From an uncultured Eubacteriales bacterium (lineage in GTDB: Bacteria > Bacillota > Clostridia > Peptostreptococcales > Anaerovoracaceae): 38,533 nt of DNA. Numbering within the stretch: the first letter of the stretch is position 1; each line of letters begins with the position of its first letter. Made by a program: the position numbers and the translations under genes. A model generated the notes under the pieces. The model was not told the origin of the DNA and searched no databases. It was given only the letters and a program-made list of their open reading frames with translations. Positions 5,569 to 34,326 of this stretch are shown here, piece after piece. The DNA lies in assembly GCA_900315125.1 (NCBI GenBank), contig OMXT01000034.1, positions 1-38,533 of the forward strand, read 5' to 3'.

Positions 5569-5576
5569 CGAATCAC

Positions 5577-10048: not shown

Positions 10049-10059
10049 AGACCGTCCTC

Positions 10060-10641: not shown

Positions 10642-10654
10642 GGGCGCACCTCGA

Positions 10655-13156
<2,502 letters not shown>

Positions 13157-13170
<14 letters not shown>

Positions 13171-13769: not shown

Positions 13770-15077
13770 CTAGGATGCTTTTCTCGCGATCTCCTCTACT
13801 CTTCCTGTGGGTTCTTCCTTTCTCAGGAGCTTGGTCAGGATGACATAGATGATCATGGCGGCGATGATGCCCTGGGCGAAGGGTACGCCTACGTTCACAA
13901 GTTTAATGATGGCATAGCCGGCTGCCCAGGAAATGATGCCGAACCAGTTAAAGCCTTCGGTGAAGCGGAATTTCTTCGGATCGCCCTTATAAATGATCCA
14001 GTAATCGGCGATGATGATGCCTACCATGGGGAGCATGATCTCCCCCAGGATATTCAGGAACGCCTCGAAGCTGTTTGCCAGGCCCATCAGCGCCAGGACG
14101 GTACCCAGCGCGCCGGAGATCATGGTTGCCCAGGAGCGCTTGTTGTCGCTGAGATTCAGTACCATGACCGCATTGATTCCGCCGGAATAGGCGTTGGATG
14201 TGTTGGTGGTCCATGTGGCTGCAATAAGTACGAGCATGCCCAGAATCGGCAGACCCACGTCTACGAACACCTGAGTAATATCATACTGATTGGCTACCTT
14301 CGTCATGATGGCGCCCAGAACGACCATCAGGACGCCCGCTGGCCAGACGCCCAGGGAACTGGACAGGATCGTATCTTTCCGGGTCCGCTGGTATCTTGTG
14401 ATATCAGAAGCTGCCAGAACGCCTGCAGCCATGAAGTTTATGGTCAGGATGACGCCGTCAGCGAAGCTCATGGTCACCTCTTTAACAGGCACGGACAGAT
14501 TCGCTGTCCCGTAGGTGCGCAGAGCAAGGATCGTACCGACGATGGTCATGACGAAGAGACACGGCACGGCGATCATGTTCAGCTTGTCCATGGCGTTAAT
14601 ACCGTAAACAGCGGTGACCAGCATGATGATGCCCCAGATGATCGTCGATACGCTGGAGGGTATCGTGACGCCGAAGGACTCCTGCAGCAGATGAGAAAAG
14701 GCTTCGCCGCAGACGGTGTTCTGAACGGCAAACCATCCGATCATGGATGCGAAGATCACGGTACTGATCAGAAAACGGGTCCCCAGTCTTCCGAATCCGC
14801 CCAGGGACGTCATGCAGGTCGGAACGCCCAGGTCGCTTCCCATGATGCCCATGAGACAGAACAGGATAATCACGATTCCGTAGCCCACAGCTCCTGAAAT
14901 GATCGCAGGGATCAGATCCATGGCCCCTGCCAGCATGCCCCCGAGCAGCAGGCTGGGCACGCAGATCATGATGCCTGCCTGAATGAAAGCTACATCGAGC
15001 CAGCTCTTCCGCTGCTCCATGGGCACCGGGGTAAGTGTGGTAGTTTCCACACCGGTGTTTTTCTTCTTATCACTCAT
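13770..15077 (-). CDS. NCS1-family nucleobase permease (CodB-like)
   Basis: The 435-residue membrane protein has about twelve predicted helices. Residues 20-110 (RKSWLDVAFIQAGIMICVPS, followed by the GIMGSDLGVPTCM loop and LISTVIFASMIGWFAVQ) are typical of the cytosine/purine permease family (NCS1, CodB type), which takes up nucleobases with H+ or Na+. AAGGAGAA precedes the ATG. It is divergent from a PucR-type regulator, a family that often controls purine or allantoin use. Substrate is uncertain: cytosine, other nucleobases or related heterocycles are possible. Confidence 0.85.
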   Translation of the reverse strand: MSDKKKNTGVETTTLTPVPMEQRKSWLDVAFIQAGIMICVPSLLLGGMLAGAMDLIPAIISGAVGYGIVIILFCLMGIMGSDLGVPTCMTSLGGFGRLGTRFLISTVIFASMIGWFAVQNTVCGEAFSHLLQESFGVTIPSSVSTIIWGIIMLVTAVYGINAMDKLNMIAVPCLFVMTIVGTILALRTYGTANLSVPVKEVTMSFADGVILTINFMAAGVLAASDITRYQRTRKDTILSSSLGVWPAGVLMVVLGAIMTKVANQYDITQVFVDVGLPILGMLVLIAATWTTNTSNAYSGGINAVMVLNLSDNKRSWATMISGALGTVLALMGLANSFEAFLNILGEIMLPMVGIIIADYWIIYKGDPKKFRFTEGFNWFGIISWAAGYAIIKLVNVGVPFAQGIIAAMIIYVILTKLLRKEEPTGRVEEIARKAS

Positions 15078-19324: not shown

Positions 19325-20125
19325 CTACAGATTTTTCGTTTTATTATAGCCGGCGATGACGGACTCCATGAGAATGGACTGGAAACCACCCTTCTTCAGA
19401 GAGCGCTCCGCCTCAATGGTCACCCCGCCGGGAGACATCATGGCCTGGGCCCGGGCGCCGGGATCTGCGCCGGTCTCACCGATCAGCATCGCCGCACCCA
19501 TCATGTTCTTCAGCACCATGTCCAACGCATCCTTCCGGCGGAAGCCTACATAAACGCCGGCATCGGTCAGCGCCTGGATCGTCTCGTAGATCCACAGCGG
19601 GCCCACGTTTGTGAAGCTTGTGAATGCATCGAACATGTCCTCCCGGATCTCCAGAATCTGGCCGAGATAGCCTACGAGTTCACGGACGATCGCTCTGTCA
19701 TCCTCTGTCAGACCGCCGCTCATGCACAGGGCGGAATAGCCGCACTGCGTCTTTATCAGCGTGTTAGGCGTCATGCGAACCAGCTTCAGACCCTGTCCCA
19801 GCTGATCCGCAAGCTTCGCAAGGGGCGTAGCGGCAACGATAGAAATAATGATCTGATTTTCGTTTACCAGAGGACGGAGCGTGCCGGTCACGGATTCCAG
19901 ATGCTGGGGCGTGACAGCGATCAGGATCACATCCGCCGCTGCCATCTGGTCCTTTACATCTCCGGCAGCCTCTATGCCATATGTTTCCTTAAGATATTCA
20001 CAGCGTGCAGGAACCACTTCGCTGACTGCAATGTTCTTTGGGCTGACGCCGCCGTTATTTATAAATCCTCCCAGGATCCCTTCTGCCATATTTCCGCCGC
20101 CGCAGAATACGATCTTCTTATCCAT
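19325..20125 (-). CDS. proC: Pyrroline-5-carboxylate reductase family protein
   Basis: The 266-residue NAD(P)H-dependent reductase has the Rossmann motif CGGGNMAEGILGGF at residues 7-20 and the ProC C-terminal signature MSPGGVTIEAERSLKKGGF. Full length for the family. The usual reaction is 1-pyrroline-5-carboxylate to proline. AGGAG precedes the ATG. Its promoter carries the same 17-base motif as the gntR and transporter promoters, so it is probably co-controlled with the B12 mutase cluster rather than being only a proline-biosynthesis gene. A related cyclic imine as natural substrate is possible. Confidence 0.88.
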   Translation of the reverse strand: MDKKIVFCGGGNMAEGILGGFINNGGVSPKNIAVSEVVPARCEYLKETYGIEAAGDVKDQMAAADVILIAVTPQHLESVTGTLRPLVNENQIIISIVAATPLAKLADQLGQGLKLVRMTPNTLIKTQCGYSALCMSGGLTEDDRAIVRELVGYLGQILEIREDMFDAFTSFTNVGPLWIYETIQALTDAGVYVGFRRKDALDMVLKNMMGAAMLIGETGADPGARAQAMMSPGGVTIEAERSLKKGGFQSILMESVIAGYNKTKNL

Positions 20126-20160
20126 TTTCTGTTCTCCTCTCAGTTTCGTTTTTTGTCATA

Positions 20161-20177
20161 TCATACTTGTTGTATTA
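20161..20177. promoter_or_regulatory. GntR operator at the proC promoter
   Basis: On the minus strand the site reads TAATACAACAAGTATGA and overlaps a -10 box TATAAT (plus-strand 20174-20179). The dyad form is TCATAC-N5-GTATGA. Closely matching sites are at 21002-21018 and 25821-25837. Binding here would block proC transcription. The binding protein (encoded at 20241-20990) is inferred. Confidence 0.6.
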
Positions 20178-20240
20178 TATAAATGCTGTAAACCAGATAT
20201 TTATCTCTCTAAAATCTCGGCTGCAGACTGCACCGCTGTC

Positions 20241-20990
20241 CTACTGTGCTTTGGACGAACGGGCTGTAATAAAATCGTGATAAGCCATATCCGCTTCCAG
20301 ATGCTTCTTTTCCACCGCCCTTGCAGTATCTGGATCGTGATCCCGGATCGCCTGAACGATCTGGCGGTGGGCTTCCAGGGAATTCTGCCGGAACTCCGAA
20401 AGTTCCATGTCGCCGCTGTAGATCTGCTCAACCACTTCCTTATGGAAATAGTCATAATACGCAGTAAGAGCGCTGACGATCAGGTTGTTGCCTACGTGCT
20501 CCCGGATATAGGCGTGGAACCGGTAATTGCTGTCCAGCAGCTTCTTGTCATCATCCTCTGCCACCGCTTCCTCGCACTCCTTACGGATCGTGTCCAGCCC
20601 TTCTATATCCTTCTCGTTCATCTTCTGAGCTGCAAGATAAACAGCCTCCGGCTCCAGCGCGCAGATAAATTCGCCCAGTTCATCCATATCGGCAAGTTCC
20701 AGACTGGCCACGAAATTCCCGTCCTTCGCGATATCCTTGCGGCTGCGGACCCGGGTTCCGTGCTTGGTCCTGCGGATGTATCCCTGGGTATCCAAAATCT
20801 TATATGCCTCCCGCAGCGTTCCGCGGCCCACATTCAGCTGCTTGCTGAATTCATTCTCGTTGGGGAACGTAAACCCGTCCGGCAGTTCCTCAGAAACGAT
20901 CATATTCTTTATTCTGCTGGCCAGGATATCTGACTGAGTCAGGATCTGATGAATAGCCAGCTTGTCCAGTACGTTTGTATCCTTCGCCAT
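20241..20990 (-). CDS. GntR-family (FCD subgroup) transcriptional regulator
   Basis: The 249-residue protein starts at ATG 20990, which has AAGGAGAA upstream; an in-frame ATG 15 bases earlier lies before that ribosome site. The N-terminal winged helix is at about residues 20-90 (EFSKQLNVGRGTLREAYKIL then GYIRRTKHGTRVRS). The C-terminal FCD ligand domain has the metal-binding His pattern (FHAYIREH, EAHRQIV, KKHLEADMAY), as in regulators that sense organic or amino acids. Its own promoter has the shared 17-base operator just downstream of the start point, so autorepression is likely. Its probable targets are proC and the transporter-mutL-mutase operon. Confidence 0.88.
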   Translation of the reverse strand: MAKDTNVLDKLAIHQILTQSDILASRIKNMIVSEELPDGFTFPNENEFSKQLNVGRGTLREAYKILDTQGYIRRTKHGTRVRSRKDIAKDGNFVASLELADMDELGEFICALEPEAVYLAAQKMNEKDIEGLDTIRKECEEAVAEDDDKKLLDSNYRFHAYIREHVGNNLIVSALTAYYDYFHKEVVEQIYSGDMELSEFRQNSLEAHRQIVQAIRDHDPDTARAVEKKHLEADMAYHDFITARSSKAQ

Positions 20991-21001
20991 AATTCTCCTT
21001 A

Positions 21002-21018
21002 TCATACAACAGGTCGTA
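21002..21018. promoter_or_regulatory. GntR operator at the gntR promoter
   Basis: The site TCATACAACAGGTCGTA lies between the predicted start point (near 21025) and the ribosome site of the gntR gene. It matches the sites at 20161-20177 and 25821-25837. Its position suggests a roadblock or start-site occlusion by the regulator. Confidence 0.6.
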
Positions 21019-21031
21019 TCCTACAATAAGT

Positions 21032-21061
21032 ATTATATCCTCTTCCCCTGTACAAATTCAA
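21032..21061 (-). promoter_or_regulatory. Promoter of the gntR gene
   Basis: On the minus strand TTGAAT (21056-21061) and TATAAT (21032-21037) are spaced 18 bp apart. This gives the regulator its own promoter in the 85-base gap after the B12 mutase gene. Confidence 0.65.
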
Positions 21062-21075
21062 GTCTGCCGCTTTCT

Positions 21076-22830
21076 TCAGCCTCTGATATTTTCTGACAGA
21101 TAATCAACAATTCGGTCAATGTCATTATCCGTGTTGATTCCCAGGGCAGCCAGACGGTCAGAAACATCCACGGGCAGATCACTGCCATCCACCGGCTCAT
21201 TCAGCCGTCCGCCCATGATGACCGGAACATCTATGCCCAGTTCATGGAGCCGTTCCATCATTTTCTTTCCAAAGCTGTAGGCGATTCCGTTATATGTGCT
21301 GACCAGAACCGCCCTGCTGCCAGTCTCAATGGCTGCGTCACCCAGTTCTTCTATGGATACATTCGTTCCCAGGTCGAAGACCTCTGCTCCGGCCTTCGTC
21401 AGTACATTCTTGCAGATCTCCTTCCCGAACTCATGGACGTCTGTCGCCGCAACGATCACGTTTACGCCGGAAAGAGGCTTGTCATCCAGACCCTTAATGT
21501 CCTTCATGATATCATCCTGCTGCCTGGATATTTCCACAACGATGGATGTGGGATGGACCGGCTTTCGTCCGCCCATAGCCGCGCTGTCTTTCTCTCCGGA
21601 ACCGTAATTCTCCTCCAGCTGAGGAACGCCCACCGCTTTCAGCGCTGCCAGGATCTGCCCCGGATGGGTGATGTCGATGTCATGGTCGTCAAAGGCATTC
21701 AGCACCCGCTCGAAGAACACATTGCCGCAGGCTACCAGCTTATCCGCTTCCGCCTCGATCCTGGCTACATCCAGATACTGCATGTTGTATTTCGCTTCTT
21801 CTATTGCCATGTCCACCGTGTTGTGGGCGTCGATGATCTCCTGGACGTTCGGTACGCGGATCGCTTCTGTCACCGGGATCGGGGTAATGGCATGACCGCT
21901 GGGCCACAGCATCTGACCCATGGCGTCCGCCATGGAATATGCAGTAACATTGGCATAGTTTTTCGGCATGTTGTAACCGAAGTCGATGGTGTTGCCGTAG
22001 ATCATGGAACCCGGTGTCTTATACTTATTGATCTTCCACATGGCGCAGTTGAATATGATGCGGAGCATGGGATCATTAAAGAGATTGCCGAAGCAGTGAG
22101 CCATCCGTGCTCCCAGAAGATCCTCTACGATATATCTCTCCAGTCTCGCGAATCCTACAAGGTTCGCCAGGTCGTGGAACTGGGCGCCGAATCCATCGTC
22201 CAGGTTGGAATGGATGATCGTACCCTCATCCCGCTTGCGGGCCATGATGCCGATGGCTTTCATCATATCGGTGACCCGGTATTCGTCCATATCCAGACCG
22301 GGATATTCGTAGGCGTAATACTGTGAGATATTGCCGATCGTCGTTACTCCGGCGTTCAGCGCGTGGATCGTATTGTCCACGCCGTTCAGGGAACCGATCA
22401 TATGGTCGCCGCAGTGGGGCTGGATCTCTGCAACCTGCCCCAGAGCAGCCCACTCCTCATCGTTTTTCAGGATCAGACCGGATCCGGGCTGCAGCGATCC
22501 CCGGTACTCCTCCGGAACACCCATGACCCAGTCCATGCATGCACCAAACCGGTCCCAGCCGGAGCCGGAGGACGTGAGAGAATCAAAGACTTCTTTAATC
22601 CCGTCCCGCGTAACATCCCAGGAATTCCAGCCGATGGCAGAATGCTTCATTACCTTATGCTCCGCCATCATCCGTTCCTTATATTCCCGTTCGGACTTAA
22701 CATTGTATTTCTTCATGAACAGCGTTGTCCCAATGGTAACGCCCTCCGCCAGCTTGTCCGTCTCGTGATTCACGGTCTCCATATCCGGCAGATTTCTGAT
22801 ATCGAATTTCCACTTGAATTTCAGTTCCAT
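21076..22830 (-). CDS. Single-chain cobalamin-dependent mutase-like protein
   Basis: The 584-residue protein has a C-terminal B12-binding domain (about residues 450-584) with the base-off/His-on motif D464-x-H466-x-x-G469 (ATDVHEFGKEI), followed by RAVLVSTYNG and VPVIMGGRLN. These align with the SxL and GG motifs of the glutamate mutase small subunit. The N-terminal 450 residues carry a well-ordered domain (IQPHCGDHMIGSLNGVDN, NISQYYAYEYPGLDMDEYR) that I do not recognise with certainty; by size and position it should be the catalytic barrel. Total length is near the sum of GlmE and GlmS, so it looks like a fused carbon-skeleton mutase; 2-methyleneglutarate mutase is also a single chain. GAGGAG precedes the ATG, 12 bases after the mutL-type gene. 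Substrate unknown. Confidence 0.7.
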   Translation of the reverse strand: MELKFKWKFDIRNLPDMETVNHETDKLAEGVTIGTTLFMKKYNVKSEREYKERMMAEHKVMKHSAIGWNSWDVTRDGIKEVFDSLTSSGSGWDRFGACMDWVMGVPEEYRGSLQPGSGLILKNDEEWAALGQVAEIQPHCGDHMIGSLNGVDNTIHALNAGVTTIGNISQYYAYEYPGLDMDEYRVTDMMKAIGIMARKRDEGTIIHSNLDDGFGAQFHDLANLVGFARLERYIVEDLLGARMAHCFGNLFNDPMLRIIFNCAMWKINKYKTPGSMIYGNTIDFGYNMPKNYANVTAYSMADAMGQMLWPSGHAITPIPVTEAIRVPNVQEIIDAHNTVDMAIEEAKYNMQYLDVARIEAEADKLVACGNVFFERVLNAFDDHDIDITHPGQILAALKAVGVPQLEENYGSGEKDSAAMGGRKPVHPTSIVVEISRQQDDIMKDIKGLDDKPLSGVNVIVAATDVHEFGKEICKNVLTKAGAEVFDLGTNVSIEELGDAAIETGSRAVLVSTYNGIAYSFGKKMMERLHELGIDVPVIMGGRLNEPVDGSDLPVDVSDRLAALGINTDNDIDRIVDYLSENIRG

Positions 22831-22842
22831 TTTTCTTCTCCT

Positions 22843-24225
22843 CTATAGTTCGGTGAGACTGTTTATCATCAGTTCGTATGCCGCTTCCTCATCGTATTCT
22901 CTGAGGAGCCCTGCTGCGAAGAACACATAGTCAGCATCCAGATAGGCCTTCAGCTCTCTTGGGACAAGTCTTTTTTCATCCCTGCCGCAGCCCTCCGCAG
23001 CCTTCAGTATGGAACGGGGATCCCGATTGTGCACAAGCACACCGCCCGTTCCGATGATGCGGCGGATCTCCGTCAGGTTTTTCCCGAGCTGCACCCAGGG
23101 CGTGACTTTGTTATAGGAAGGTCTGAGCACACCGCTGTGCCGCGCCACCGCCTGCTCCACCGCAAGGGACGCGATCTTGTCATCAACATCATATTCTTCT
23201 TCCGTATCCGGAAGATAGTCTATATGCTCCATCCGTTTCTCCACGGACTGCTGAAGCACAGAGACGCTGCAGCCCAGCTCCGCCGCCGCCCGTCCGATGA
23301 CTTCTTCATTCAGCACGCCGCCCGAAGACTCCCTCATCCCCAGGTCGCCTTCTACTGTGCGCTTAGCGAAGGGCTCTTCCACGCCAATGAGTTTGGCGCC
23401 CCGGCAGCTTTTATTCTCAGAGAAAGAATACACATCCGTCGTCGCGCCGCCGACGTCTACCAGCAGGAAAGAACCAAATCCGTCCCTGCCTCCCGGACCT
23501 CTGTTGAGCAGTTCTCCTGCCGAGAGGACCGCCGCAGGCGTCGGAATGAAGGAATTGTCGAAGTACTGCTTGACCTCGTGGAACCCCTTCATGTCTGTGA
23601 TCCGATCCAGAAACAGATTCCGGATGACCTCCTGCACCGGTTCTACATTCAGTTCACCGATCGCGGGTATGATATTATCTATTATAAAGCATTTCTTCTG
23701 GTGTGCCTTCATAAGAGTCCGCACCGTGACGCCCAGCTCCGAATTGCCGGAGTAAATGACAGGCACCCGGATTCTCGACCTGGCAAGAGTCCGTGCATTG
23801 TCCAGGACGAGCTGCACATTGCCGTGTTCATACCCGCCGCTGAGCAGAACGATATCCGCATCGCTTTCCGCAAGCTTCTCTCCGTCGTCCTCTGTCATCC
23901 CGCCATTATAATTGGCCACGATCTTCGCTCCTGCCCCGAGGGCCGCAGATTTTCCGGCAAGAGTGCTGAGAGAACGGGTCAGACCGATCACCGCCATCCT
24001 AAGTCCTCCCGCCGCGCTCGAAGAAGTGAGCTTCAGCGCTTCATCGAACGCCTGCTCTCCCAGGACGTCCCTGACGCGCCGGAAGCACTCCTCCATTCCC
24101 CTCCCGGCATCGGTTCCTACCGTAGAGGGCACCTTATCCGTCAGAAGCAGTTTTCTGTTTTGGACATCCGCGACGACGACCTTGGTAAACGTGCTGCCAA
24201 AGTCGATCATGACCGCATGCTTCAT
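22843..24225 (-). CDS. MutL/GlmL-type ATPase (B12 mutase-associated)
   Basis: The 460-residue protein has the actin/Hsp70 ATPase fold. The first phosphate loop is MIDFGSTFTKVVVADV (residues 6-21) and the second is LLVDVGGATTDVYSF near residue 255. VANYNGGMTEDDGEKL and SGGYEHGN are characteristic of the GlmL/MutL family found beside glutamate mutase and ornithine aminomutase genes, thought to protect or reactivate the B12 enzyme. The start at 24225 has AAAGGA upstream; a longer frame reaching 24408 would overlap the transporter gene and lacks family sequence. It sits immediately before the mutase gene. Confidence 0.88.
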   Translation of the reverse strand: MKHAVMIDFGSTFTKVVVADVQNRKLLLTDKVPSTVGTDAGRGMEECFRRVRDVLGEQAFDEALKLTSSSAAGGLRMAVIGLTRSLSTLAGKSAALGAGAKIVANYNGGMTEDDGEKLAESDADIVLLSGGYEHGNVQLVLDNARTLARSRIRVPVIYSGNSELGVTVRTLMKAHQKKCFIIDNIIPAIGELNVEPVQEVIRNLFLDRITDMKGFHEVKQYFDNSFIPTPAAVLSAGELLNRGPGGRDGFGSFLLVDVGGATTDVYSFSENKSCRGAKLIGVEEPFAKRTVEGDLGMRESSGGVLNEEVIGRAAAELGCSVSVLQQSVEKRMEHIDYLPDTEEEYDVDDKIASLAVEQAVARHSGVLRPSYNKVTPWVQLGKNLTEIRRIIGTGGVLVHNRDPRSILKAAEGCGRDEKRLVPRELKAYLDADYVFFAAGLLREYDEEAAYELMINSLTEL

Positions 24226-24271
24226 TTTTTCTGTCCTTTCTTGCTTTACCTTATCAGCCTCTTTACACCCC

Positions 24272-24294
24272 GAGCCCCGGAATCTCCGAGGCTC
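24272..24294. other. Intercistronic hairpin between transporter and mutL-type gene
   Basis: A 10-bp stem with one G-T pair (GAGCCTCGGA and TCCGGGGCTC on the minus strand) has a 3-base loop and no T-run. It lies in the 92-base gap of the operon. Such hairpins often act as mRNA processing or stability elements that give transporter and enzyme genes different expression levels. Confidence 0.45.
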
Positions 24295-24317
24295 GAGTCT
24301 AAGGATGCATTTATGAT

Positions 24318-25736
24318 TTAGAAAAGTGACATGATTGCCGTTACCGTAAAGTAAGCCATGACCAGCGGGAAGAAGTACTTGTACATCACGTCGATCCAGG
24401 ATCCCCACTGAATCTCGCTTGTGGGATTGTACAGTTCTGTTCTTACTTTCTTAGCGCCGAACTTCCAGCCGATCATGAGAGCGATGCACAATGCGCAGAC
24501 ATCATAACCAATGGATCCTACCAGATTGTCGAATACCGCAAAGAACGCATCGTTCCAGTTGCAGGGAATGGCCAGCAGCGCCGCGATTACGAACGCCAGG
24601 ATAACGGCCTTGCCGCGGCTCAGCTTCAGTCCCGCCTTATCCATGAAGGCGCTGATGCCTACTTCCAGCTGACTGATGGAAGACGAAAGACCGGCAAACA
24701 GCAGCGCTACGTAGAACAGGATCATGAACAAAGCCCCGACCGGCAGAGAATCGAATACCTTCGGCAGTGCGACGAACATAACGCCCTTGCCCATCTCCGG
24801 ATCGAATCCGAATACCTTGACCGCCGGGATGATAACGAAGCCGGAAAGCAGACAGATAAAGAGCTGTACTACGTTAACAGTAACAAAGTCCATGGCGATA
24901 TCCTGCTTCGCGTCGACGTGTCTTCCGTAAGCATACAGGACTCCAGGCCCAAGGCCGACAGCAAAGAGCGCCATGCCGCAGGCTTCCGCCCACATTGTGG
25001 GATTGAGCAGCTCTTTCCAGTCCGGATGGATATAATATTCTATACCCTCTCCGATTCCGGGGATAAAGCATACGCAGACACACAGAACAATCAGGATAAC
25101 TCCCAGTGCCGGAAGCATGATCTTGCAGATCTTTTCAATGCCGCCTGCAATACCTCTCGTTACAATTATAGCAGTAAGAGCAAGTACGACCAGAATAAAT
25201 CCATATACCAGCGGTTTATTTCCGTTCAGCGATTCAAAGGTCTCCATGGACCGATCCGCGTAATTCAGTCCGCCGCCGATGGTCTTGCCGATATAAACGA
25301 TGACCAGACCGATGATCGCCGGGTAATAAGCCCACAGGAACAGCTGGTCCAGGGAACACAGCAGACCGAGGATCTTTCCGGCGAACCCAATCTCCTCGCT
25401 GAAAGCGGACATGTGTTCCACTCTCTTATGCCTGGAGTAAGCGATCTCTGCCATACCTGCCGGGAGCACCAGCAGAATGCATATTATTACAAAGGCCAGT
25501 ACGAAGGCTCCTCCGCCCCACTTGGCGCACAGCATAGGGAAACGCCACATGGCGCCGACGCCTACTGCCATTCCAATGGTGGAAAGGATGAATCCGATCC
25601 GGCTGCTGAATCCGTCACTTCCCGCATTGATCTCGCCTTTACTGTTTCCCGTAAGGGACTTCTTGATCAGAATTCCGCTTCCTCCGCCGAATACCACCAG
25701 ATATACGGCGAGCATCACGATAGTTGATGTTGACAT
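24318..25736 (-). CDS. Sodium-dependent transporter, NSS (SNF) family
   Basis: The 472-residue membrane protein is a Na+-coupled amino-acid symporter of the LeuT type. The family signature lies at residues 46-67 (GFILSTIGMAVGVGAMWRFP), followed by KWGGGAFVLAF. It has an extra hydrophobic helix at residues 4-26 before the usual first helix, so the predicted topology has one more segment than standard bacterial members. AAAGGAGAAG precedes the ATG. It is the first gene of the transporter-mutL-mutase unit. Its partner genes suggest the imported amino acid is the mutase substrate. The sodium gradient could come from the Na+-type V-ATPase of this window. Confidence 0.9.
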   Translation of the reverse strand: MSTSTIVMLAVYLVVFGGGSGILIKKSLTGNSKGEINAGSDGFSSRIGFILSTIGMAVGVGAMWRFPMLCAKWGGGAFVLAFVIICILLVLPAGMAEIAYSRHKRVEHMSAFSEEIGFAGKILGLLCSLDQLFLWAYYPAIIGLVIVYIGKTIGGGLNYADRSMETFESLNGNKPLVYGFILVVLALTAIIVTRGIAGGIEKICKIMLPALGVILIVLCVCVCFIPGIGEGIEYYIHPDWKELLNPTMWAEACGMALFAVGLGPGVLYAYGRHVDAKQDIAMDFVTVNVVQLFICLLSGFVIIPAVKVFGFDPEMGKGVMFVALPKVFDSLPVGALFMILFYVALLFAGLSSSISQLEVGISAFMDKAGLKLSRGKAVILAFVIAALLAIPCNWNDAFFAVFDNLVGSIGYDVCALCIALMIGWKFGAKKVRTELYNPTSEIQWGSWIDVMYKYFFPLVMAYFTVTAIMSLF

Positions 25737-26016: not shown

Positions 26017-26910
26017 CTATTCAGACTTTTTTTGTTTCTGCGCTCCCTTCCACGTCTCAAGATATTCCAGAAACTTCCTCAATGCGGCTGAACCGTTGTC
26101 CGGATCCCAGACAATGCCGATGTGCCGGACGATGTTTTCCTTCAGCGGACGGACAGCGACATCATAAGGCATCCGGCCCATGGAGAGCTCCTGCACTACA
26201 CTGACGCCGATGCCCTTCTCCACCATGGCGAGAACGACGGAATCATCATAGGTGCGAAGGAATACCCGGGGCGCCAGGCCTCGAGACCGGAACTGTTTGA
26301 TCGTTTCCATGTTTTCGCCCCGGTCCAGCAGCAGAAACGGATCATCGCACATCATATCAAGGGAAAGAGCCGTCTCTGCGGCCATAGGATGCGTCTTGGG
26401 CACCACAGCCACCATCTTGTCTTCCCCGATCTCCATGGTTCGGAACGTACCAACCGTGGGCAGTCTCAGGAAGGCGCAGTCCGCCCTGCCCCGGGATACC
26501 CAGTCTTCCATTTCCAGATAGTCGCCGATCTCTATCTCATAATCTATAGCCGGGTATTTCGCACTGAAACCCTGCAGGATGTCCGGCAGCCAATGACTGC
26601 CCACACTTGCTACGGCGCTGATACTGATGTGCCCCGTTTCAAGCCCCCGGATCTCCTGGACGAGATGCTCCAGATTCTGTTCCTCCTGCCTCAGATGCAG
26701 CATCTGTTCATAAATGATCCTTCCCTCACTGCTGAGCCGCACACCTTCCTTATCCCGAATAAGAAGCTTTATTTTCCACTCCGCCTCCAGGGATGCGATC
26801 ATTTTGCTGACAGCGGACTGGGTATAGCCCAGAGACTCCGCTGCAGCGGTAATTCTGCCCAGCTGCACCGTCCGGATGAATGCTTCATACTTTGTAAAAC
26901 CGCTGTCCAT
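26017..26910 (-). CDS. LysR-family transcriptional regulator
   Basis: The 297-residue protein has the LysR winged helix at residues 5-64 (RITAAAESLGYTQSAVSKMI then ASLEAEWKIKLLIRDKEGVR) and a substrate-binding domain (residues 90-290, GHISISAVASVGSHWLPDIL). It ends in a Lys/Glu-rich tail. AAAGG lies upstream of the ATG. It is divergent from the EamA transporter gene across a 104-base gap with a palindrome at 26924-26940, the usual arrangement of a LysR activator and its target. The effector is unknown. Confidence 0.92.
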   Translation of the reverse strand: MDSGFTKYEAFIRTVQLGRITAAAESLGYTQSAVSKMIASLEAEWKIKLLIRDKEGVRLSSEGRIIYEQMLHLRQEEQNLEHLVQEIRGLETGHISISAVASVGSHWLPDILQGFSAKYPAIDYEIEIGDYLEMEDWVSRGRADCAFLRLPTVGTFRTMEIGEDKMVAVVPKTHPMAAETALSLDMMCDDPFLLLDRGENMETIKQFRSRGLAPRVFLRTYDDSVVLAMVEKGIGVSVVQELSMGRMPYDVAVRPLKENIVRHIGIVWDPDNGSAALRKFLEYLETWKGAQKQKKSE

Positions 26911-27922: not shown

Positions 27923-29698
27923 TCAGACGTTATACTTCTCTATCATTCGATACATCGTGCGGCGGGACACTCCCAGCAGCTTCGCCGCCTCCGTCTTGCT
28001 TCCCCCCGCCTGGCGGATGGCCTCCCGGATCAGATCCGCGTAATCGCTGTCAATTTTCTTCTTTAGGACAGCCAGCGGATCCTGACCGGGACTTTTTTCT
28101 TCTTTCTCCGCCGGGGCCGTCTGCTTCAGCGAGTATCCCCTTGCTGAGATGGCAGCCCGCACATCTTCCGGCGTTACAGTTTCCCCTTTACTCAAAAGCG
28201 ATATCCTGTAAACTGTATTGCGCAGTTCCCGGACATTGCCCGGCCAGCTGTATTCACACAGCGCTTCTTCTGCTGCCTGTGACAGCCGCTTTGGCTTGCC
28301 GTTTTCCATCGACGCCGCCTGACCGAGGAAATTCTCTGTCAGCCGGATGATATCCTTTCCCCGATCTCTCAGGGGAGGGATCTGCAGCCGAAGTACCTGG
28401 AGCCGGTAATAGAGATCCTCCCGGAAGAATCCTTCTTCTATCATTTTCTCCAGATTCCTGTTTGTGGCAGCGATCACCCGGACGTCCACCGGTGTTTCCT
28501 TATTGCTGCCGATGCGCATGACCTTTCTTGTTTCCAGTACCCGGAGCAGCTTCGCCTGAAAGTGGATAGGCAGTTCGCCGATCTCGTCCAGGAAGATCGT
28601 TCCGCCGTCCGCCAGTTCAAACTTGCCGATCTGTCCGGACCGTGACGCGCCGGTAAAGGCGCCTCCCACGTATCCGAACAGTTCACTTTCTATGAGGTTC
28701 TCCGGAAGACTAGCGCAATTTATTGCCACAAAGGGCCCGTTGCGACGGCCACTTTCGTTATGGACCGCCTGAGCGAACAGTTCCTTTCCGGCTCCGCTTT
28801 CACCGACAATGAGAAGATTATAGGGGCTTGCGGCGAATTCCATGGCCGCGTCTTTCGCCGCCTTCATCACAGGGCTCTCTCCGACGATGGAATCAAAGGT
28901 ATATTCCGCCCGCAGGCCCATGATCTTTTTCGTTTTATTGAGGTCCAGATGGTGGGTATATGCCACCTCCACCATGCCCTCTACCTTTCCGGCGCTGTCT
29001 TTTACCGGATACATGTTGTTTGACACGAGATGGGCGAAATTCGGTGAGTCCTCCGCCTCCACGTTGACTTCCCAGTCCAGGATCTTCCGTCCGTTCTTCA
29101 GAACGTCCATCATTTTCAGCTTGTCTGTCCCGGTTGCGTTGGCTTTGATCCGGATCCCTGCCTGTTTGGTAATATTCAGGATATGTTTTCCCACCGCTTC
29201 TTCTCTGCTGGCAATGTGCATGCTGTCGCAGTAGCTTTTGTTCGCGTAGAGCAGAAATGCCTCACTGTCATAGACGCAGATGGGATTGTCCACATGATCA
29301 AACCAGTCCAGAATATGGTCCGCCCTGCCTTTGTTCCTGACGCAGACAGAAAACAGTGACGCAAGGCGCGATGCCATGGATTGCAGCTCCTCACCCGGCG
29401 CATCGGCTGCCACAAGAAAATCCGGTCCTGCTTCCACTGCCGTCAGTTCCTCTATGGCCTTCATTTTTTCCATGTCCAGGTAATATCCCGTGACAGGACG
29501 GGTAAACCGGGCAATCGCTGTATCGATCAGGAAGCCCCGGACCGTCAGCAGCATGATGATGTTGTGATCCTCCGCAGGCTCCTTTACCAGCAGCCGGAAA
29601 AGGTCGCGCATCAGGGCATTCTCTCCCGTCACCTGTCTCCACGTATTATTTCCGTCGTCTGTTACCAGACTCCTGATCTTCGCTTCAAGATTCTCCAT
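27923..29698 (-). CDS. Sigma-54-dependent transcriptional activator with PAS domain
   Basis: The 591-residue protein has an N-terminal variable region, a PAS sensor (about residues 125-240, FDHVDNPICVYDSEAFLLYA), an AAA+ domain with Walker A GESGAGKE (Lys305) and the sigma-54 loop GAFTGA (346-351), and a Fis-type helix-turn-helix at the C-terminus (GGSKTEAAKLLGVSRRTMYR). The start at 29698 has AAAGGA upstream; an ATG at 29713 would give a 4-base overlap with the AraC gene but has no clear ribosome site. It follows the AraC gene in one unit, divergent from the GRE operon, and probably activates it or the second GRE. No clear -24/-12 box was found nearby. Confidence 0.93.
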   Translation of the reverse strand: MENLEAKIRSLVTDDGNNTWRQVTGENALMRDLFRLLVKEPAEDHNIIMLLTVRGFLIDTAIARFTRPVTGYYLDMEKMKAIEELTAVEAGPDFLVAADAPGEELQSMASRLASLFSVCVRNKGRADHILDWFDHVDNPICVYDSEAFLLYANKSYCDSMHIASREEAVGKHILNITKQAGIRIKANATGTDKLKMMDVLKNGRKILDWEVNVEAEDSPNFAHLVSNNMYPVKDSAGKVEGMVEVAYTHHLDLNKTKKIMGLRAEYTFDSIVGESPVMKAAKDAAMEFAASPYNLLIVGESGAGKELFAQAVHNESGRRNGPFVAINCASLPENLIESELFGYVGGAFTGASRSGQIGKFELADGGTIFLDEIGELPIHFQAKLLRVLETRKVMRIGSNKETPVDVRVIAATNRNLEKMIEEGFFREDLYYRLQVLRLQIPPLRDRGKDIIRLTENFLGQAASMENGKPKRLSQAAEEALCEYSWPGNVRELRNTVYRISLLSKGETVTPEDVRAAISARGYSLKQTAPAEKEEKSPGQDPLAVLKKKIDSDYADLIREAIRQAGGSKTEAAKLLGVSRRTMYRMIEKYNV

Positions 29699-29709
29699 GT
29701 CATGTCCTT

Positions 29710-30606
29710 TCATGCCCGCTTCTGGTTCTCCGGCCCGATGTAGTAGTAAATGCCGTCCTTATCCGCCTGAGAAGCAAACTTCCCCGGCGTGACGCCCACT
29801 GCATGGTGGAATGTCCGGATGAAATGGCTCAGATCGTTAAATCCGGAGCCGTAACACGCATCCGTTACGGAGGAACCGCCTGCCAGAAGCATCTTGGCCT
29901 CAGCGATCCTCCTCGTTACAATATAGCGGTTGACCGTCGTTCCTGTCTGGTCCCGGAAGACCTTGCACAGGTGATTCTTGCTCAGCCCGGCCTGCTCAGC
30001 CAGCCTGTCCAGGCTGAGATCCTCGGAGATATGGCCTGTGATGTATTCCATCAGCTGCCCGATCAGATCCATATTCCCTGATCCGCCTTCTTCCCGCTGT
30101 ACATCCTCTGAATCATGATATGCCCCCGCAATCAGTGTGAGCATCTCAATATAGAGGACTCTTCTCAGCACATCGCTGCCGTAACTGGCCTTCTCCGCCT
30201 GCTCATAGGCGCTGCAGAGACCGGTCAGCTCGGAAAACTGCTCCCGGCTCAGGGGCACCCGGTTGGAAAAATGTTCCGGTCTCTTATACACATAGTGGAG
30301 CAAATCCGTCTTCTCCGTGCAGAAGGGAAGAACGAAGGACGGCTTGAACTCCCAGACATAGCGCTCGTACCGTTCCCCTTCCCGGGCAATGACCCGGTGT
30401 GCTTCCAGCGTATTGTTCACAAACAAGTCTCCCGGGCGGATATTATAGATCCGGTCATCGATGATAAAGTCCCGTCCGCCGGAAATGCTCAGATATACTT
30501 CTATAAAATTATGACAGTGGAACCCCATGCTGAAGTCCTGATCGTCTATCAGATGATGCAGGCTGTATTCCTGCCGGGATTCTTCTCTTTCTACAATTCT
30601 GCTCAT
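29710..30606 (-). CDS. AraC-family transcriptional regulator
   Basis: The 298-residue protein has an N-terminal cupin-like effector domain (residues 15-90, FSMGFHCHNFIEVYLSISGG and IYNIRPGDLFVNN) and a C-terminal pair of helix-turn-helix motifs (residues 188-285, LDRLAEQAGLSKNHLCKVFR and YGSGFNDLSHFIRTF). It is divergent from the GRE gene across 197 bases of AT-rich DNA and co-transcribed with the sigma-54 activator. Two regulators in tandem suggest that the GRE operon answers to two signals. The ribosome site AAAGG is rather distant from the ATG. Confidence 0.92.
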   Translation of the reverse strand: MSRIVEREESRQEYSLHHLIDDQDFSMGFHCHNFIEVYLSISGGRDFIIDDRIYNIRPGDLFVNNTLEAHRVIAREGERYERYVWEFKPSFVLPFCTEKTDLLHYVYKRPEHFSNRVPLSREQFSELTGLCSAYEQAEKASYGSDVLRRVLYIEMLTLIAGAYHDSEDVQREEGGSGNMDLIGQLMEYITGHISEDLSLDRLAEQAGLSKNHLCKVFRDQTGTTVNRYIVTRRIAEAKMLLAGGSSVTDACYGSGFNDLSHFIRTFHHAVGVTPGKFASQADKDGIYYYIGPENQKRA

Positions 30607-30803: not shown

Positions 30804-33191
30804 ATGATATCTGAGAGAGTTAAGTACCTGAAAGACAAGCAGAGAAATACAACGCCCACATTCAGCGCGGAACGCGCCCGTCTTGCCACAGAGGCTTACC
30901 AGATCTACGGCGGCGAGCCAAACGTGCTGCTGAAGGCCAAGATGCTTTATCATATCGTCGACAACATGACCATGTATCTGGACAAGGGCGACCTGATCGC
31001 CGGAAATTATACCGACCGTCCCAGATGCGCGCCCATCTTCCCGGAATTCGCTTCCAAGTGGATCGAAGATGAGATTGATACCTTCACCACCCGCACCCTG
31101 GACCGTATGACGGCCACGGACGAAATGAAACAGGAAGTCCTGGACATCCTGAAGTACTGGGAGGGCAAATCCTTCGACCAGGTAACGGCGGGCGCATGCA
31201 GCCAGGAAGCCCTGGACGCTATGAACTCCGGCATCCTTTCCATCGGCGGCATGGAAACAAGCACCGGCCACGTACTGCCGAACTACAACAGACTGTTCGA
31301 CGGCGGCCTTGCCCGGGTGATCAGCGAATGCCAGGAAAACATCGATAATCAGAAGGTCGCCTGCAGAGAAGACCAGGAAAAGGTGGACTTCTGGAACGCT
31401 GTCATCATTGCCTGCAAGGCGGCGATCCGCTACGCGAACCGCACGGCGGAGCTGATGGATCAGCTGGCTGCCGAGGAGCAGGACGCAGCGTGGAAGGCAG
31501 AGCTCATCCAGATGGCTGCAAACTGCAGACAAGTGCCGGAGCACAGCCCCGAGACATTCTGGCAGGCCATCCAGTTCGCATGGATCATCCACATCGTCCT
31601 CTGGATCGAGAGCAACGGCCATTCCAACTCCTTCTCGTCCTTCGACCGGTCCATCAACCCCTATTATGTGGCAGATCTGAAAGCCGGCAGAGTGACAGAA
31701 CGCCAGGCGCTGGATATCCTGGAATGCTTCTTTATCAAGCTGACAGATATCCTCAAACTCCGCCCCGCATTTTTCAGCGAGAGCTGGGCAGGCTATCCCG
31801 TATGGCAGAACATGACCATCGGCGGCGTAGGCAACGACGGAAGAGACGGATGCAATGAATCCACCATGCTCCTCCTGAAGGCAAATGAAGAAGTACAGAC
31901 ATCCCAGCCCACCATGTCCCTGCGCTATCACAGACATATGTCAAAAGAGGTATTCGACCAGGCGATCCACATGATCCAGAACGGACTGGCCACCCCCTCC
32001 TTCTTCAACGATCATCTGTGCATTCCTCTGATCCTGAGCAAGTGCGACGGGATCAACATCGAGGACGCCCGCAACTACGGCATGCTGGGCTGCGTACAGC
32101 CTGTACCCGGCGGAAAGACAGACGGCCGCGCCCAGGTAGGAACAGTCAACCTGCTGAAATGCGTGGAGTTCGCCATGCACGACGGATTCGACCCCCAGAC
32201 CGGAAAGCAGACCGGACCCCATACCGGGAAGTTTGAGGACTTCCAGTCCTACGATGAGTTCTTCCAGGCATTCCTGAAGCAGGTGGACTTTTCTTTCGAC
32301 CTGATGATCAATGCCTACAACTCCGTTACGGCGATCCACGCCGTTCGTCAGAATATGCCCTTTGCATCCATGACCATAGACGGCTGCATAGAAAAGGCCA
32401 AGTCCCTGCAGCAGGGCGGCGCCAAATATAACTACTCCGGAACGCTGGCAGACGGCCTTGCCAACGCTATGGACTCGCTGATCGCCGTGAAGATGATGGT
32501 CTTCGATGAGAAAGAGCTGACCGCCAAAGAACTTTTGGATGCCTGCGACCAGGACTTCCCCGATGAGGTCCTCCGCCAGAAGCTGCTGAACCGGGTTCCC
32601 AAATACGGCAATGACGATGACCGTGTCGACATGATTGGCAACCAGATCCTGCGCCATATTAATAAGTTCCTGGAGGGATATAAAGACAGCCGGGGCGCCC
32701 GCTTCACCTTCGACATCGAGTCCCAGTCCTACAACATTGTACAGGGACGCTGCGTCGGCGCTACGCCTGACGGCCGCAAAGCGGGACAGTCTCTGGGCGA
32801 CAACGTATCTCCTGTCATGGGCCGCGATGTGAACGGACCAACAGCGACCGTATTGTCTGTTTCCAAGATCGACCAGTTCAATACGACGGACGGCGCGCTG
32901 TACAACCTGCGCTTTGACCCCCGTTCCATTTCCGGAGAGAAGGGAAAGAACGTTCTGGGCGGCGTGGTAAAAACTTACTTTGACCATTACGACGAACACA
33001 TCCAGATCAATGTGGTATCAGACAGGACGCTGCGGGAAGCACAGAAGAAGCCGGAGGACTATAAGAATCTCCTTGTCCGTGTCGCCGGATATCTGGCTTA
33101 CTTCACAGAGCTGGATTCCAACGTTCAGGAGAACATCATTTCCAGAACCGTGCATACGGCAGACGGCGGCGGATGCGGCTGCGGCTGCTGA
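30804..33191 (+). CDS. Glycyl radical enzyme with an altered catalytic motif (GCVQP)
   Basis: The 795-residue PFL-superfamily protein is preceded by AAAGGAGG. The glycyl radical loop is RVAGYLAYF with Gly762, and the thiyl Cys is C430. The normal dehydratase/eliminase motif is GCVEP, with Glu as general base; here it is GCVQP, with Gln432 (codon CAG). H156 in GHVLPNYNRL matches the conserved active-site His of the glycerol and hydroxyproline dehydratases. The Cys-to-Gly spacing (332) is normal. The C-terminus ends in GGGCGCGC, an unusual Cys-rich tail. The adjacent gene encodes its activase. Pyruvate formate-lyase is excluded because it has a Cys-Cys pair. The reaction is unknown; the Gln suggests chemistry that does not use the usual Glu base. 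Confidence 0.92.
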   Translation: MISERVKYLKDKQRNTTPTFSAERARLATEAYQIYGGEPNVLLKAKMLYHIVDNMTMYLDKGDLIAGNYTDRPRCAPIFPEFASKWIEDEIDTFTTRTLDRMTATDEMKQEVLDILKYWEGKSFDQVTAGACSQEALDAMNSGILSIGGMETSTGHVLPNYNRLFDGGLARVISECQENIDNQKVACREDQEKVDFWNAVIIACKAAIRYANRTAELMDQLAAEEQDAAWKAELIQMAANCRQVPEHSPETFWQAIQFAWIIHIVLWIESNGHSNSFSSFDRSINPYYVADLKAGRVTERQALDILECFFIKLTDILKLRPAFFSESWAGYPVWQNMTIGGVGNDGRDGCNESTMLLLKANEEVQTSQPTMSLRYHRHMSKEVFDQAIHMIQNGLATPSFFNDHLCIPLILSKCDGINIEDARNYGMLGCVQPVPGGKTDGRAQVGTVNLLKCVEFAMHDGFDPQTGKQTGPHTGKFEDFQSYDEFFQAFLKQVDFSFDLMINAYNSVTAIHAVRQNMPFASMTIDGCIEKAKSLQQGGAKYNYSGTLADGLANAMDSLIAVKMMVFDEKELTAKELLDACDQDFPDEVLRQKLLNRVPKYGNDDDRVDMIGNQILRHINKFLEGYKDSRGARFTFDIESQSYNIVQGRCVGATPDGRKAGQSLGDNVSPVMGRDVNGPTATVLSVSKIDQFNTTDGALYNLRFDPRSISGEKGKNVLGGVVKTYFDHYDEHIQINVVSDRTLREAQKKPEDYKNLLVRVAGYLAYFTELDSNVQENIISRTVHTADGGGCGCGC

Positions 33192-33238: not shown

Positions 33239-33270
33239 CAGGGGAAATATCGGATCCGATGTTTCCCCTG
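33239..33270. other. Long hairpin between the GRE and activase genes
   Basis: A 15-bp stem (CAGGGGAAATATCGG against CCGATGTTTCCCCTG, one G-T pair) has a loop of only two bases, so the tip will open. There is no T-run after it. It probably reduces read-through or protects the upstream mRNA, so that the catalytic activase is made in smaller amounts than the GRE. Confidence 0.6.
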
Positions 33271-33302
33271 TGCCGTACATACACCAGAAAGGAACCATTA
33301 CA

Positions 33303-34223
33303 ATGGCTGAGAAACAAGGTATGCTGGGCGGTATCCAGAGATTTTCAACAGAAGACGGACCGGGGATCCGGACGACGCTGTTCTTTAAGGGCTGCCCGCT
33401 GAACTGCAAATGGTGCCACAACCCGGAGCTCATCAGCACCCGCCTGGAGATCCTTTATTCCGTGAACAAATGCATCCGCTGCGGCTCCTGCATCAAGTCC
33501 TGTCCTCAGCACGCCATCCGCTTCACCGGCGAGCAGATCGAGATCGACCGCAGCCGCTGCGTCCACTGCGGAACCTGCGCAGAGAACTGCTATACCGACG
33601 CTCTCCGCACTGCCGGCGAGTACCGCAGCGACGAAGAGCTGATGGACCTGCTGTCCCGTGACCGGAATTTCTATGAAGAAACCGGCGGCGGCGTTACCCT
33701 GTCCGGGGGCGAAGTCACATCCCAGACATCCTACGCGTTCGAGATTCTCCAGGGCTGCCGGGCTCAGGGGCTGGATGTGGCCATAGACACCTGCGGCTAC
33801 ACACCTTATGAGAATCTGGAGAAGCTCTGCGCAGACGCTCAGGTCATCCTCTATGATATAAAGTGTATTGATTCTGACCGCCACAAAGCGCTGACCGGCG
33901 TGGGCAACGAGCGCATCATCGACAACCTGCGCCGCCTCGCTGCCGATCCCCTGCTGCACGAGAAGATCATCATCCGCATGCCCCTGGTCCATCCCCTAAA
34001 CGATTCCCTGGAAGAGATGCAGCAATGCTGCGATCTCTATAATGAGCTGGGGCTTAAGAAGGTCAACGGCATCCCCTATCATACCCTGGGCACATCCAAG
34101 ACCCGGAGCATGGGACAGATTCCAGAAGAATACGAAACGCCTTCCGATGAACATCTGGACGCGATCCAGGCCCTGTTCCAGAAGAACGGCATTCCCTTTA
34201 CCATTATGGGAAAGGACGACTGA
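33303..34223 (+). CDS. Glycyl radical enzyme activase (radical SAM)
   Basis: The 306-residue protein starts at ATG 33303 with AGAAAGGAACC upstream; a frame extending to 33270 runs into the hairpin. The radical SAM cluster motif is C-x3-C-x2-C (CPLNCKWCH) near residue 30, preceded by STEDGPGIRTTLFFKG, the GRE-activase signature. Two extra 4Fe-4S motifs follow (CIRCGSCIKSCP and CVHCGTCAENC), as in activases of dehydratase-type GREs but not PFL activase. It abstracts H from Gly762 of the adjacent GRE to set the radical. It may also serve the second GRE at 36367-38533, because no other activase lies in the window. Confidence 0.94.
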   Translation: MAEKQGMLGGIQRFSTEDGPGIRTTLFFKGCPLNCKWCHNPELISTRLEILYSVNKCIRCGSCIKSCPQHAIRFTGEQIEIDRSRCVHCGTCAENCYTDALRTAGEYRSDEELMDLLSRDRNFYEETGGGVTLSGGEVTSQTSYAFEILQGCRAQGLDVAIDTCGYTPYENLEKLCADAQVILYDIKCIDSDRHKALTGVGNERIIDNLRRLAADPLLHEKIIIRMPLVHPLNDSLEEMQQCCDLYNELGLKKVNGIPYHTLGTSKTRSMGQIPEEYETPSDEHLDAIQALFQKNGIPFTIMGKDD

Positions 34224-34240
34224 GTTCTTTCGAAATACTG

Positions 34241-34266
34241 AAATCCGCTGCAGCTCCAGCGGATTT
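34241..34266 (+). terminator. Intrinsic terminator after the GRE-activase operon
   Basis: AAATCCGCTG and CAGCGGATTT form a perfect 10-bp stem with a 6-base loop, followed by TCGTCTTTC. It lies 17 bases beyond the activase stop, so the two following genes probably have their own promoter, with some read-through possible. Confidence 0.75.
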
Positions 34267-34288
34267 TCGTCTTTCATCCAGGCAGATG

Positions 34289-34297
34289 TGATATACT
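34289..34297 (+). promoter_or_regulatory. Promoter element of the DUF4037-DUF4125 pair
   Basis: TGATATACT is an extended -10 element, 30 bases before the start codon, after the terminator at 34241-34266. The -35 is poor. Confidence 0.4.
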
Positions 34298-34326
34298 ACA
34301 GTAAACGCAAAAAGGAGGAAATAACC

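Follow-up and report, generated by a model that had tools for sequence, protein, structure and literature searches.

What reaction does a B12 protein catalyse when most of its chain matches no family model, and its gene stands between those of an amino-acid transporter and a MutL-type ATPase on one side and a ProC-type reductase on the other? The question is raised by contig OMXT01000034.1 of an uncultured Eubacteriales bacterium of the family Anaerovoracaceae (assembly GCA_900315125.1, positions 1 to 38,533 of the forward strand); this whole stretch of 38,533 nucleotides is called the window below. An earlier note, made from the sequence, had pointed to five genes at 19325-25736 and proposed that an imported amino acid is rearranged to a product that cyclises to an imine, which ProC then reduces. 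The five genes do lie on one strand (minus) and belong by Pfam to the families named, so that the observation itself is confirmed, while the interpretation is only partly supported: an elimination, namely a dehydration, fits the neighbouring genes better than a rearrangement. Our favoured answer, which we offer tentatively and with more doubt than confidence, is that the protein may be an adenosylcobalamin (AdoCbl)-dependent dehydratase that would convert an isomer of hydroxyproline to pyrroline-5-carboxylate (P5C), to be reduced by ProC to proline, and would thus do with B12 what HypD does as a glycyl radical enzyme.

The protein in question has 584 residues and carries, as described in the note, a GlmS-like B12 domain with the motif D464-x-H466-x-x-G469. 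Its only Pfam match is this domain (residues 456-542, PF02310, 9.3e-11); its NCBIfam matches, all below cut-off, and its PDB sequence matches likewise lie around the B12 domain. The N-terminal domain of 450 residues is indeed unfamiliar: it has no match in Pfam or NCBIfam, and a profile of it finds no PDB sequence at E<=10. D464, H466, S511, G540 and G541 are invariant in 27/27 aligned proteins and G469 is kept in at least 90%; the combination of D-x-H-x-x-G, Ser and GG is what we take to be the signature of B12 bound base-off/His-on in class I AdoCbl mutases. A model of the barrel alone, built from 10 sequences (pLDDT 76.5, pTM 0.83), has glutamate mutase E as its nearest fold (1cb7_B, 2.3e-8), with lysine 5,6-aminomutase also near (1xrs_A, 1.7e-6). 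A second model, of the full chain and built from 27 sequences (pLDDT 89.9, pTM 0.89), has as its top Foldseek matches methylmalonyl-CoA mutase (MCM; 1req_A, 1.2e-12) and ornithine 4,5-aminomutase (3kp1_A, 2.8e-12), and GlmE (6h9e_B, 7.2e-9) and GlmS (1i9c_A, TMt 0.77) follow further down. The models and Foldseek thus recover the barrel plus B12 domain architecture of class I AdoCbl mutases. Judged by sequence and models, the protein is a single-chain class I AdoCbl-mutase-type enzyme whose barrel lies outside the family models searched, and this barrel is by the same evidence a new family among class I AdoCbl enzymes, 2-methyleneglutarate mutase standing outside the comparison; its pathway context is new as well. 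We refer to the protein and its relatives as mutases for short.

The fold of the barrel might suggest a glutamate mutase fused into one chain, which would turn glutamate into 3-methylaspartate. When modelled by itself the barrel does, after all, match GlmE best in fold, and the MutL protein encoded next to the mutase scores close to the GlmL equivalog model NF040745 (442.7 bits, cut-off 475), a model that one of the five mutase-linked MutL proteins scanned does pass (491.3 bits, locus L126). PF06368, however, has no match in the protein or in its genome, and this absence led us to mark the idea down. The profile-profile comparison by hhalign of the barrel with six GlmE proteins gives a probability of only 24%, a relation barely detectable, and it is within this weak match that E322 (invariant in 27/27) falls opposite a Glu of GlmE, the one in TPREAMGIPT. 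The glutamate mutase S component model NF002612 reaches 54.1 bits against a cut-off of 110, and no gene of the methylaspartate route was recognised among the annotated neighbours, where no search aimed at such genes was made. We consider this reading extremely improbable. More generally, no strong likeness to a characterised mutase was found among those compared: the PDB profile search is empty, GlmE is matched at the 24% just given and OraE in the B12 domain only.

Full-length relatives of the mutase are, by sequence searches, rare. The barrel profile matches 4/391 genomes of the class, 18/349 of the family and 3/398 of the phylum, the window's genome being included in each; an earlier search with residues 111-584 tallied 255/297 genomes of the order, mostly through the B12 domain, and gave matches below 1e-50 in 9/297. 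In what follows, L-numbers denote loci and G-numbers genomes; sets of 14 and 17 stretches were examined, and a further 16 that mostly adjoin these. Of the 36 pieces labelled mutase, no count includes two fragments in L077 (60 and 143 aa), and the tree omits that of L123 (261 aa) as well and hence has 33 rows; the locus counts comprise 25 close and 9 distant loci. The window's mutase falls into a four-row clade (support 100/100) with copies from G217, UBA4845 and G875, and this is sister to the clade of a second copy in the window's own genome, on contig C29 (54% identity). R94, Q132, H139 and H207 are clade-specific residues. Multiple copies occur elsewhere too: G217 has two in one row and G875 four. 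Contig C8 of G875 holds all four and, at E<=1e-100, also 11 matches to glycyl radical enzymes, along with several HplG/OrtAB sets.

The nine distant rows form a separate clade with 24-29% identity to the window's mutase (five aligned). At 7/9 of these loci (L066, L072-L077, L129, L130) a hydantoinase-A-like ASKHA gene replaces MutL; an Ord-like gene occurs at 2/9 and an ornithine-racemase-like gene at one, and EutH and aldehyde dehydrogenase or GSA-aminomutase-like genes are further single-locus neighbours. None of the labels MutL, transporter, glycyl radical enzyme, ProC, racemase-family gene, EamA or OrtB was given at these 9 loci, some of which lie on very short contigs, and the distant mutases perhaps catalyse other undescribed B12 reactions.

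The close loci, by contrast with the distant ones, share a neighbourhood, and it is conserved in other genera and families. Neighbours were counted up to 12 kb from each of the 25 mutases of the close clade, the window included; the counts are lower bounds, since at least 6 loci end at contig ends (L119-L123, L128) and others have short flanks. The labelling does not include locus L156. MutL is found at 20/25 and a transporter of NSS, YkvI or ArcD type at 17/25, NSS itself at 9/25 and at 4/4 in the window's own mutase clade. A glycyl radical enzyme of HplG or X type is present at 15/25: type X at 9/25 (a tenth, L064 from L131, lies outside the X clade by the trees and leaves the 15 unchanged, as an HplG-type gene is also there) and the HplG-type lyase at 8/25. 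ProC follows at 11/25, a proline-racemase-family gene at 8/25, EamA at 8/25 (omitting a second EamA-type family of the distant loci) and OrtB at 5/25. Linkage of mutase and ProC is beyond chance, even though our estimate of 1e-11 is crude (it assumes copy numbers and 3 Mb genomes and treats kin loci as independent) and overstates the case because several loci are kin. The outline of import, radical step, imine and ProC is therefore in keeping with this conserved company; what it did not foresee is that ornithine-type partners recur.

Some single rows carry special weight. In L069 (G298) an activase, a glycyl radical enzyme, MutL, the mutase, OrtA, OrtB, ProC and EamA stand in one row, and in L115 (G875) NSS is added to this set. 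From end to end the glycyl radical enzyme of L069 aligns with HplG (PDB 7vua), at 1129.5 bits where HypD reaches 454.9, and the HplG-type gene of the window, which has the motifs GCIEP and RVAGY, is 61% identical to it; a search of the whole genome found no further part of this incomplete gene. Two further rows lack an adjacent glycyl radical enzyme: L116 (G875) consists of mutase, ProC, racemase-family gene and NSS, and L124 (G876) of mutase, YkvI-type transporter, ProC and racemase-family gene. Since OrtAB, the HplG-type lyase and the racemase-family gene recur with the mutase, hydroxyproline and 2-amino-4-ketopentanoate come into play, and it is to these metabolites that the conserved neighbourhood points. 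The coordinates of the earlier note stop short in this respect: a glycyl radical enzyme, its activase and the HplG-type gene also lie in the window, and in relatives they stand close to the mutase. The window's type X1 glycyl radical enzyme, for instance, is 76% identical to that of L118, which stands two genes from MutL-mutase.

The window's own genome gives a similar picture on contig C29. There the second mutase stands with MutL, ProC and an SDR gene, and at 9-16 kb from it follow an HplG-type gene with an in-frame TGA, OrtB, OrtA, an activase, a racemase-family gene and the first part of a further HplG-type gene. The note had found no ortAB, which is true of the five genes; OrtB/OrtA nevertheless lie ~11 kb from the C29 mutase and within 12 kb of 4 other mutases. 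The TGA of the C29 gene (C29:40241-42580, L132) is single and stands at the catalytic Cys position of C-x-E. Selenocysteine is unsupported here, with the best tRNA-Sec of that genome at 37.3 bits against a cut-off of 47 and the 161 surrounding bases folding no better than shuffles (z 0.72), and we are probably dealing with a broken gene or a sequence error.

The recurrence of OrtAB also invites a comparison with OraE/KamD-type aminomutases, the substrate then being ornithine or a related compound. The fold matches OraE and KamD, OrtAB is near, and in the distant clade the ornithine-racemase-like and Ord-like genes mentioned above stand by the mutase. Such an enzyme is nonetheless very unlikely in the window: an Ord-like gene is found at 0/25 close loci, the point on which we marked ornithine aminomutase down, and the OraE model NF040743 gives 25.4 bits, in the B12 domain only, against a cut-off of 800. 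In a pairwise alignment of uncertain register, no Lys stands opposite the Lys that presumably binds pyridoxal phosphate in OraE.

How, then, might hydroxyproline and ProC be connected? According to the 2022 JACS paper on HplG, this enzyme reportedly opens trans-4-hydroxy-D-proline to 2-amino-4-ketopentanoate, which OrtAB is said to split to acetyl-CoA and D-alanine, with an epimerase acting first when cis-4-hydroxy-L-proline is the starting compound. As this route consumes hydroxyproline without the mutase or ProC, these two would make up a second branch. ProC needs a pyrroline, and G876 has the racemase-family gene, mutase and ProC together, while no HplG or HypD was found there (at E<=1e-100 it shows one glycyl radical enzyme, which the tree places in none of the HplG, HypD and X clades), so the simplest assumption is that the mutase makes P5C; the three genes by themselves fit "hydroxyproline in, proline out".

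We propose that the NSS transporter would import an isomer of hydroxyproline. Cleavage of the Co-C bond in the mutase would yield the 5'-deoxyadenosyl radical, which would abstract a hydrogen at the ring carbon adjacent to the nitrogen; the hydroxyl would depart and the hydrogen come back, giving P5C. ProC would reduce this to proline with NAD(P)H, which would make hydroxyproline an electron acceptor, and MutL would reactivate the B12 enzyme. Where the epimerase-like gene, HplG and OrtAB are present, another share of the hydroxyproline would go to acetyl-CoA and D-alanine, and the mutase-ProC branch would dispose of the electrons. We infer the transported compound, the substrate and its stereoisomer, the direction, the chemistry and the electron balance alike. 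No more firmly, we suggest that such an AdoCbl hydroxyproline dehydratase would be built on a mutase barrel not known for eliminations, and that sister copies may serve different isomers.

A true carbon-skeleton mutase, close to the first idea, would instead move a glycinyl group as glutamate mutase does: some other imported amino acid would become a semialdehyde and then a pyrroline for ProC, and the product would join the proline/hydroxyproline/HplG route. The domains and MutL are those of rearranging enzymes, and on this view ProC, the racemase-family gene and HplG would act further along the route. By reasoning, though, we find no plausible natural substrate that rearranges to P5C or hydroxy-P5C, and in G876, where no HplG was found, a hydroxyproline product would lead nowhere; we therefore judge this rather unlikely.

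For the dehydratase, the identity of the racemase-family gene and of ProC matters. The racemase-family set comprises 13 sequences, two of which are halves of one gene and some of which lie more than 12 kb from a mutase. The two catalytic Cys are present in the proteins of the relatives and of contig C29. Site 1 is Ser where proline racemases have Phe (12/12 readable) and site 4 is His (12/12 readable), a residue that, according to an excerpt of PMC4364671, may be specific to HypE; set against the proline racemase of A. sticklandii, the L116 protein reads Ser at site 1, where ProR has Phe, and His and Ala at sites 4 and 5. It is thus likely, though not settled, that the gene beside mutase and ProC encodes a hydroxyproline epimerase, to which it is alike in sequence at 2/3 sites. 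There are 2 to 6 ProC copies each in the window's genome, G217, G253, G298, G869, G875 and G876, with 3 in the window's genome, two of them adjoining mutases, and 2 in G876; in most of the genomes concerned, the ProC linked to the mutase comes on top of another. EamA-type genes are exporters, and together with the extra ProC copies they fit proline as an excreted product.

Several points weigh against a hydroxyproline dehydratase. ProC is not found within 12 kb at 14/25 loci, nor a racemase-family gene at 17/25, several of them cut or short in both cases, and within the window itself there is no racemase-family gene. To our knowledge no enzyme of this barrel type dehydrates; GlmE, MCM and OraE rearrange. 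The full-chain TM-scores in Foldseek are ~0.5 with a large root-mean-square deviation, so that the agreement is closer for each of the two domains than for the way they are arranged. Site 5 of the racemase-family proteins is Ala (12/12 readable), neither the Phe of ProR nor the Cys/Tyr of HypE; the L068 protein scores 381.8 with the NCBIfam proline racemase model (cut-off 556) and 329.1 with the epimerase model (cut-off 376), and the best PDB match of the L116 protein is a proline racemase (278.3 bits). Because this protein scores nearer to proline racemase overall, our confidence is reduced. G876 is 97% complete and 9% contaminated, so that its lack of HplG counts as good evidence, though short of perfect, and in G1288 (UBA4845) the linked ProC is the sole one found. 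According to an excerpt of PMC12899673, E. coli ProC does not oxidise D-proline; the product would therefore have to be the L form, which limits the isomers.

The glycyl radical enzymes add further difficulties. HypD is over its cut-off in 7/19 mutase genomes, the window's genome not being one of them, and where the two enzymes co-occur, one of them would have to act on another isomer; a simple replacement of HypD by the mutase was marked down on this count. PrdA is over cut-off in only 2/19 mutase genomes, with no match in the window's genome, so that proline would have to be excreted, and the idea that the general role is to feed a proline-reductase Stickland route was marked down. Moreover, in the type X1 enzyme near the mutase of the window, C-x-Q takes the place of the C-x-E of eliminases, the Glu of which has been proposed as the base (excerpt of PMC7077986). 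The C-x-Q is shared by the X1 clade (L118, L121, L136, L137, L163, L165), and a related group (L162, L172, L173, L177) reads GCIQPGPGG.

Two loci from different families, L125 (G674) and L126 (G424), also speak against the proposal: they hold mutase, MutL, type X enzyme, aminotransferase and Por genes together with an AbfD-like gene, and no ProC or racemase-family gene is in reach. Gene families were assigned by model in L125 and by homology in L126; the AbfD-like gene of L125 matches 4-hydroxybutyryl-CoA dehydratase (1u8v, 576.4 bits) and has a homologue in L126. The aminotransferase, Por and dehydratase-like genes adjoin the mutase and the type X enzyme at 672-6235 in L125 and at 2-5832 in L126. 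These loci are what one would expect of a separate amino-acid fermentation with type X enzymes, an aminotransferase, Por, a 2-hydroxyacid dehydrogenase and the AbfD-like dehydratase, sharing merely an island and regulators with the hydroxyproline genes. Yet ProC and the racemase-family gene adjoin the mutase in L116 and L124, and L069 and L115 have the HplG-type enzyme and OrtAB in a single row with the mutase, and we hold such a separate fermentation to be unlikely. The set in L125 and L126 could possibly serve a butyrate-type fermentation of the same amino acid; under the dehydratase reading, we speculate that P5C would pass through 5-hydroxynorvaline and the aminotransferase, Por and AbfD-like steps to crotonyl-CoA.

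The features of the window that bear on the mutase row are collected in the table; the row is transcribed in the order NSS, MutL, mutase, GntR, ProC.

Features of the window around the mutase row (positions in the 38,533-nucleotide stretch)
Feature	Position	Strand	Evidence and remarks
NSS/SNF-family sodium:amino-acid symporter	24318..25736	-	PF00209 9.2e-50; NF037979 109.2 bits, cut-off 50; first in row
MutL/GlmL-family ATPase, reactivase-type partner of AdoCbl mutases	22843..24225	-	460 aa; PF13941 3.6e-133
Single-chain AdoCbl-mutase-type enzyme (by sequence and models)	21076..22830	-	584 aa; barrel 1-~430, B12 Rossmann domain ~456-584
GntR/FCD transcriptional regulator	20241..21005	-	PF07729 1.6e-22, PF00392 4.8e-10
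ProC-family pyrroline-5-carboxylate reductase	19325..20125	-	PF14748, PF03807; TIGR00112 189.9 bits, just below cut-off 196.75
LysR-type regulator	26017..26910	-	PF03466, PF00126; homologue in L067 between GntR and glycyl radical enzyme
Sigma-54-dependent activator	27923..29713	-	PF00158 2.9e-70; homologues near mutases in L068, L035, L114
Type X1 glycyl radical enzyme	30804..33191	+	PF02901, PF01228; C-x-Q replaces eliminase C-x-E
Radical-SAM activase for glycyl radical enzyme	33270..34223	+	PF04055, PF00037
HplG-type glycyl radical enzyme, truncated by window end	36367..38532	-	59-69% identity to relatives' HplG-type enzymes

The mutase gene starts 12 bases from the MutL stop. The MutL frame as listed spans 22843-24408, from a GTG at 24408 within the NSS gene; the ATG at 24225, with the ribosome-binding sequence GAAAGGA ahead of it, is the better start. 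That this ATPase is of the kind that accompanies AdoCbl-mutase-type proteins, as the note had supposed, is borne out by TIGR01319 (345 bits, subfamily cut-off 204.05). The pair of glycyl radical enzyme and activase is followed by DUF4037 and DUF4125 genes (34042-35280, 35308-35931), homologues of which (43%, 42%) occur in G875 within the row of HplG and mutase (L115, 14961-16514). Polyphosphate kinase and V/A-type ATPase genes at 1140-13170 are unrelated to the mutase row. In an Rfam scan that covered the window along with 5 loci, the window gave no riboswitch; in L124 a cobalamin riboswitch (14582-14769, 104.1 bits) lies downstream of the mutase, ProC and racemase-family genes of G876, directly before cobalt-transport genes, of which CbiN was recognised.

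Hydroxyproline is abundant in collagen and in plant cell walls, and its known anaerobic use relies on glycyl radical enzymes. A B12 enzyme in hydroxyproline gene rows would, if the proposal is true, add a new reaction to those of AdoCbl and link the supply of B12 to the hydroxyproline and proline metabolism of anaerobes. Either way, the rows provide a testable context for a B12 protein family that Pfam and NCBIfam models do not cover beyond the B12 domain. According to an excerpt of PMC7077986, dehydration of hydroxyproline to P5C was without precedent in B12 enzymology as of 2020, while several other eliminations exist in both glycyl-radical and B12 form, a pattern that the dehydratase would extend. 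Among the matches listed from the open-licence PMC literature, none was a B12 enzyme acting on hydroxyproline.

Four known systems resemble the one proposed here, each in part. GlmE/GlmS with GlmL has the same barrel fold, the B12 Rossmann domain with D-x-H-x-x-G and a GlmL-family partner gene, but consists of two chains rather than one, and here the barrel is outside PF06368 and the gene company is another. OraE and lysine 5,6-aminomutase share the fold, a GlmL-related partner and, in some neighbourhoods, OrtAB; they differ in that the mutase reaches the OraE model with the 25.4 bits of its B12 domain only, and in the Ord-like gene that is missing at the 25 close loci. The pathway of HplG, OrtAB and hydroxyproline epimerase (JACS 2022) has its genes inside the mutase row or close to it in several genomes; the mutase, MutL and ProC are not known as parts of that pathway. 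HypD with P5C reductase would carry out the very reaction proposed and is likewise found near ProC, which HypD adjoins, or from which it is one gene off, in 4/6 loci examined, compared with the 11/25 of the mutase; HypD, however, is a glycyl radical enzyme, whereas the 584-residue protein is a B12 protein of another fold.

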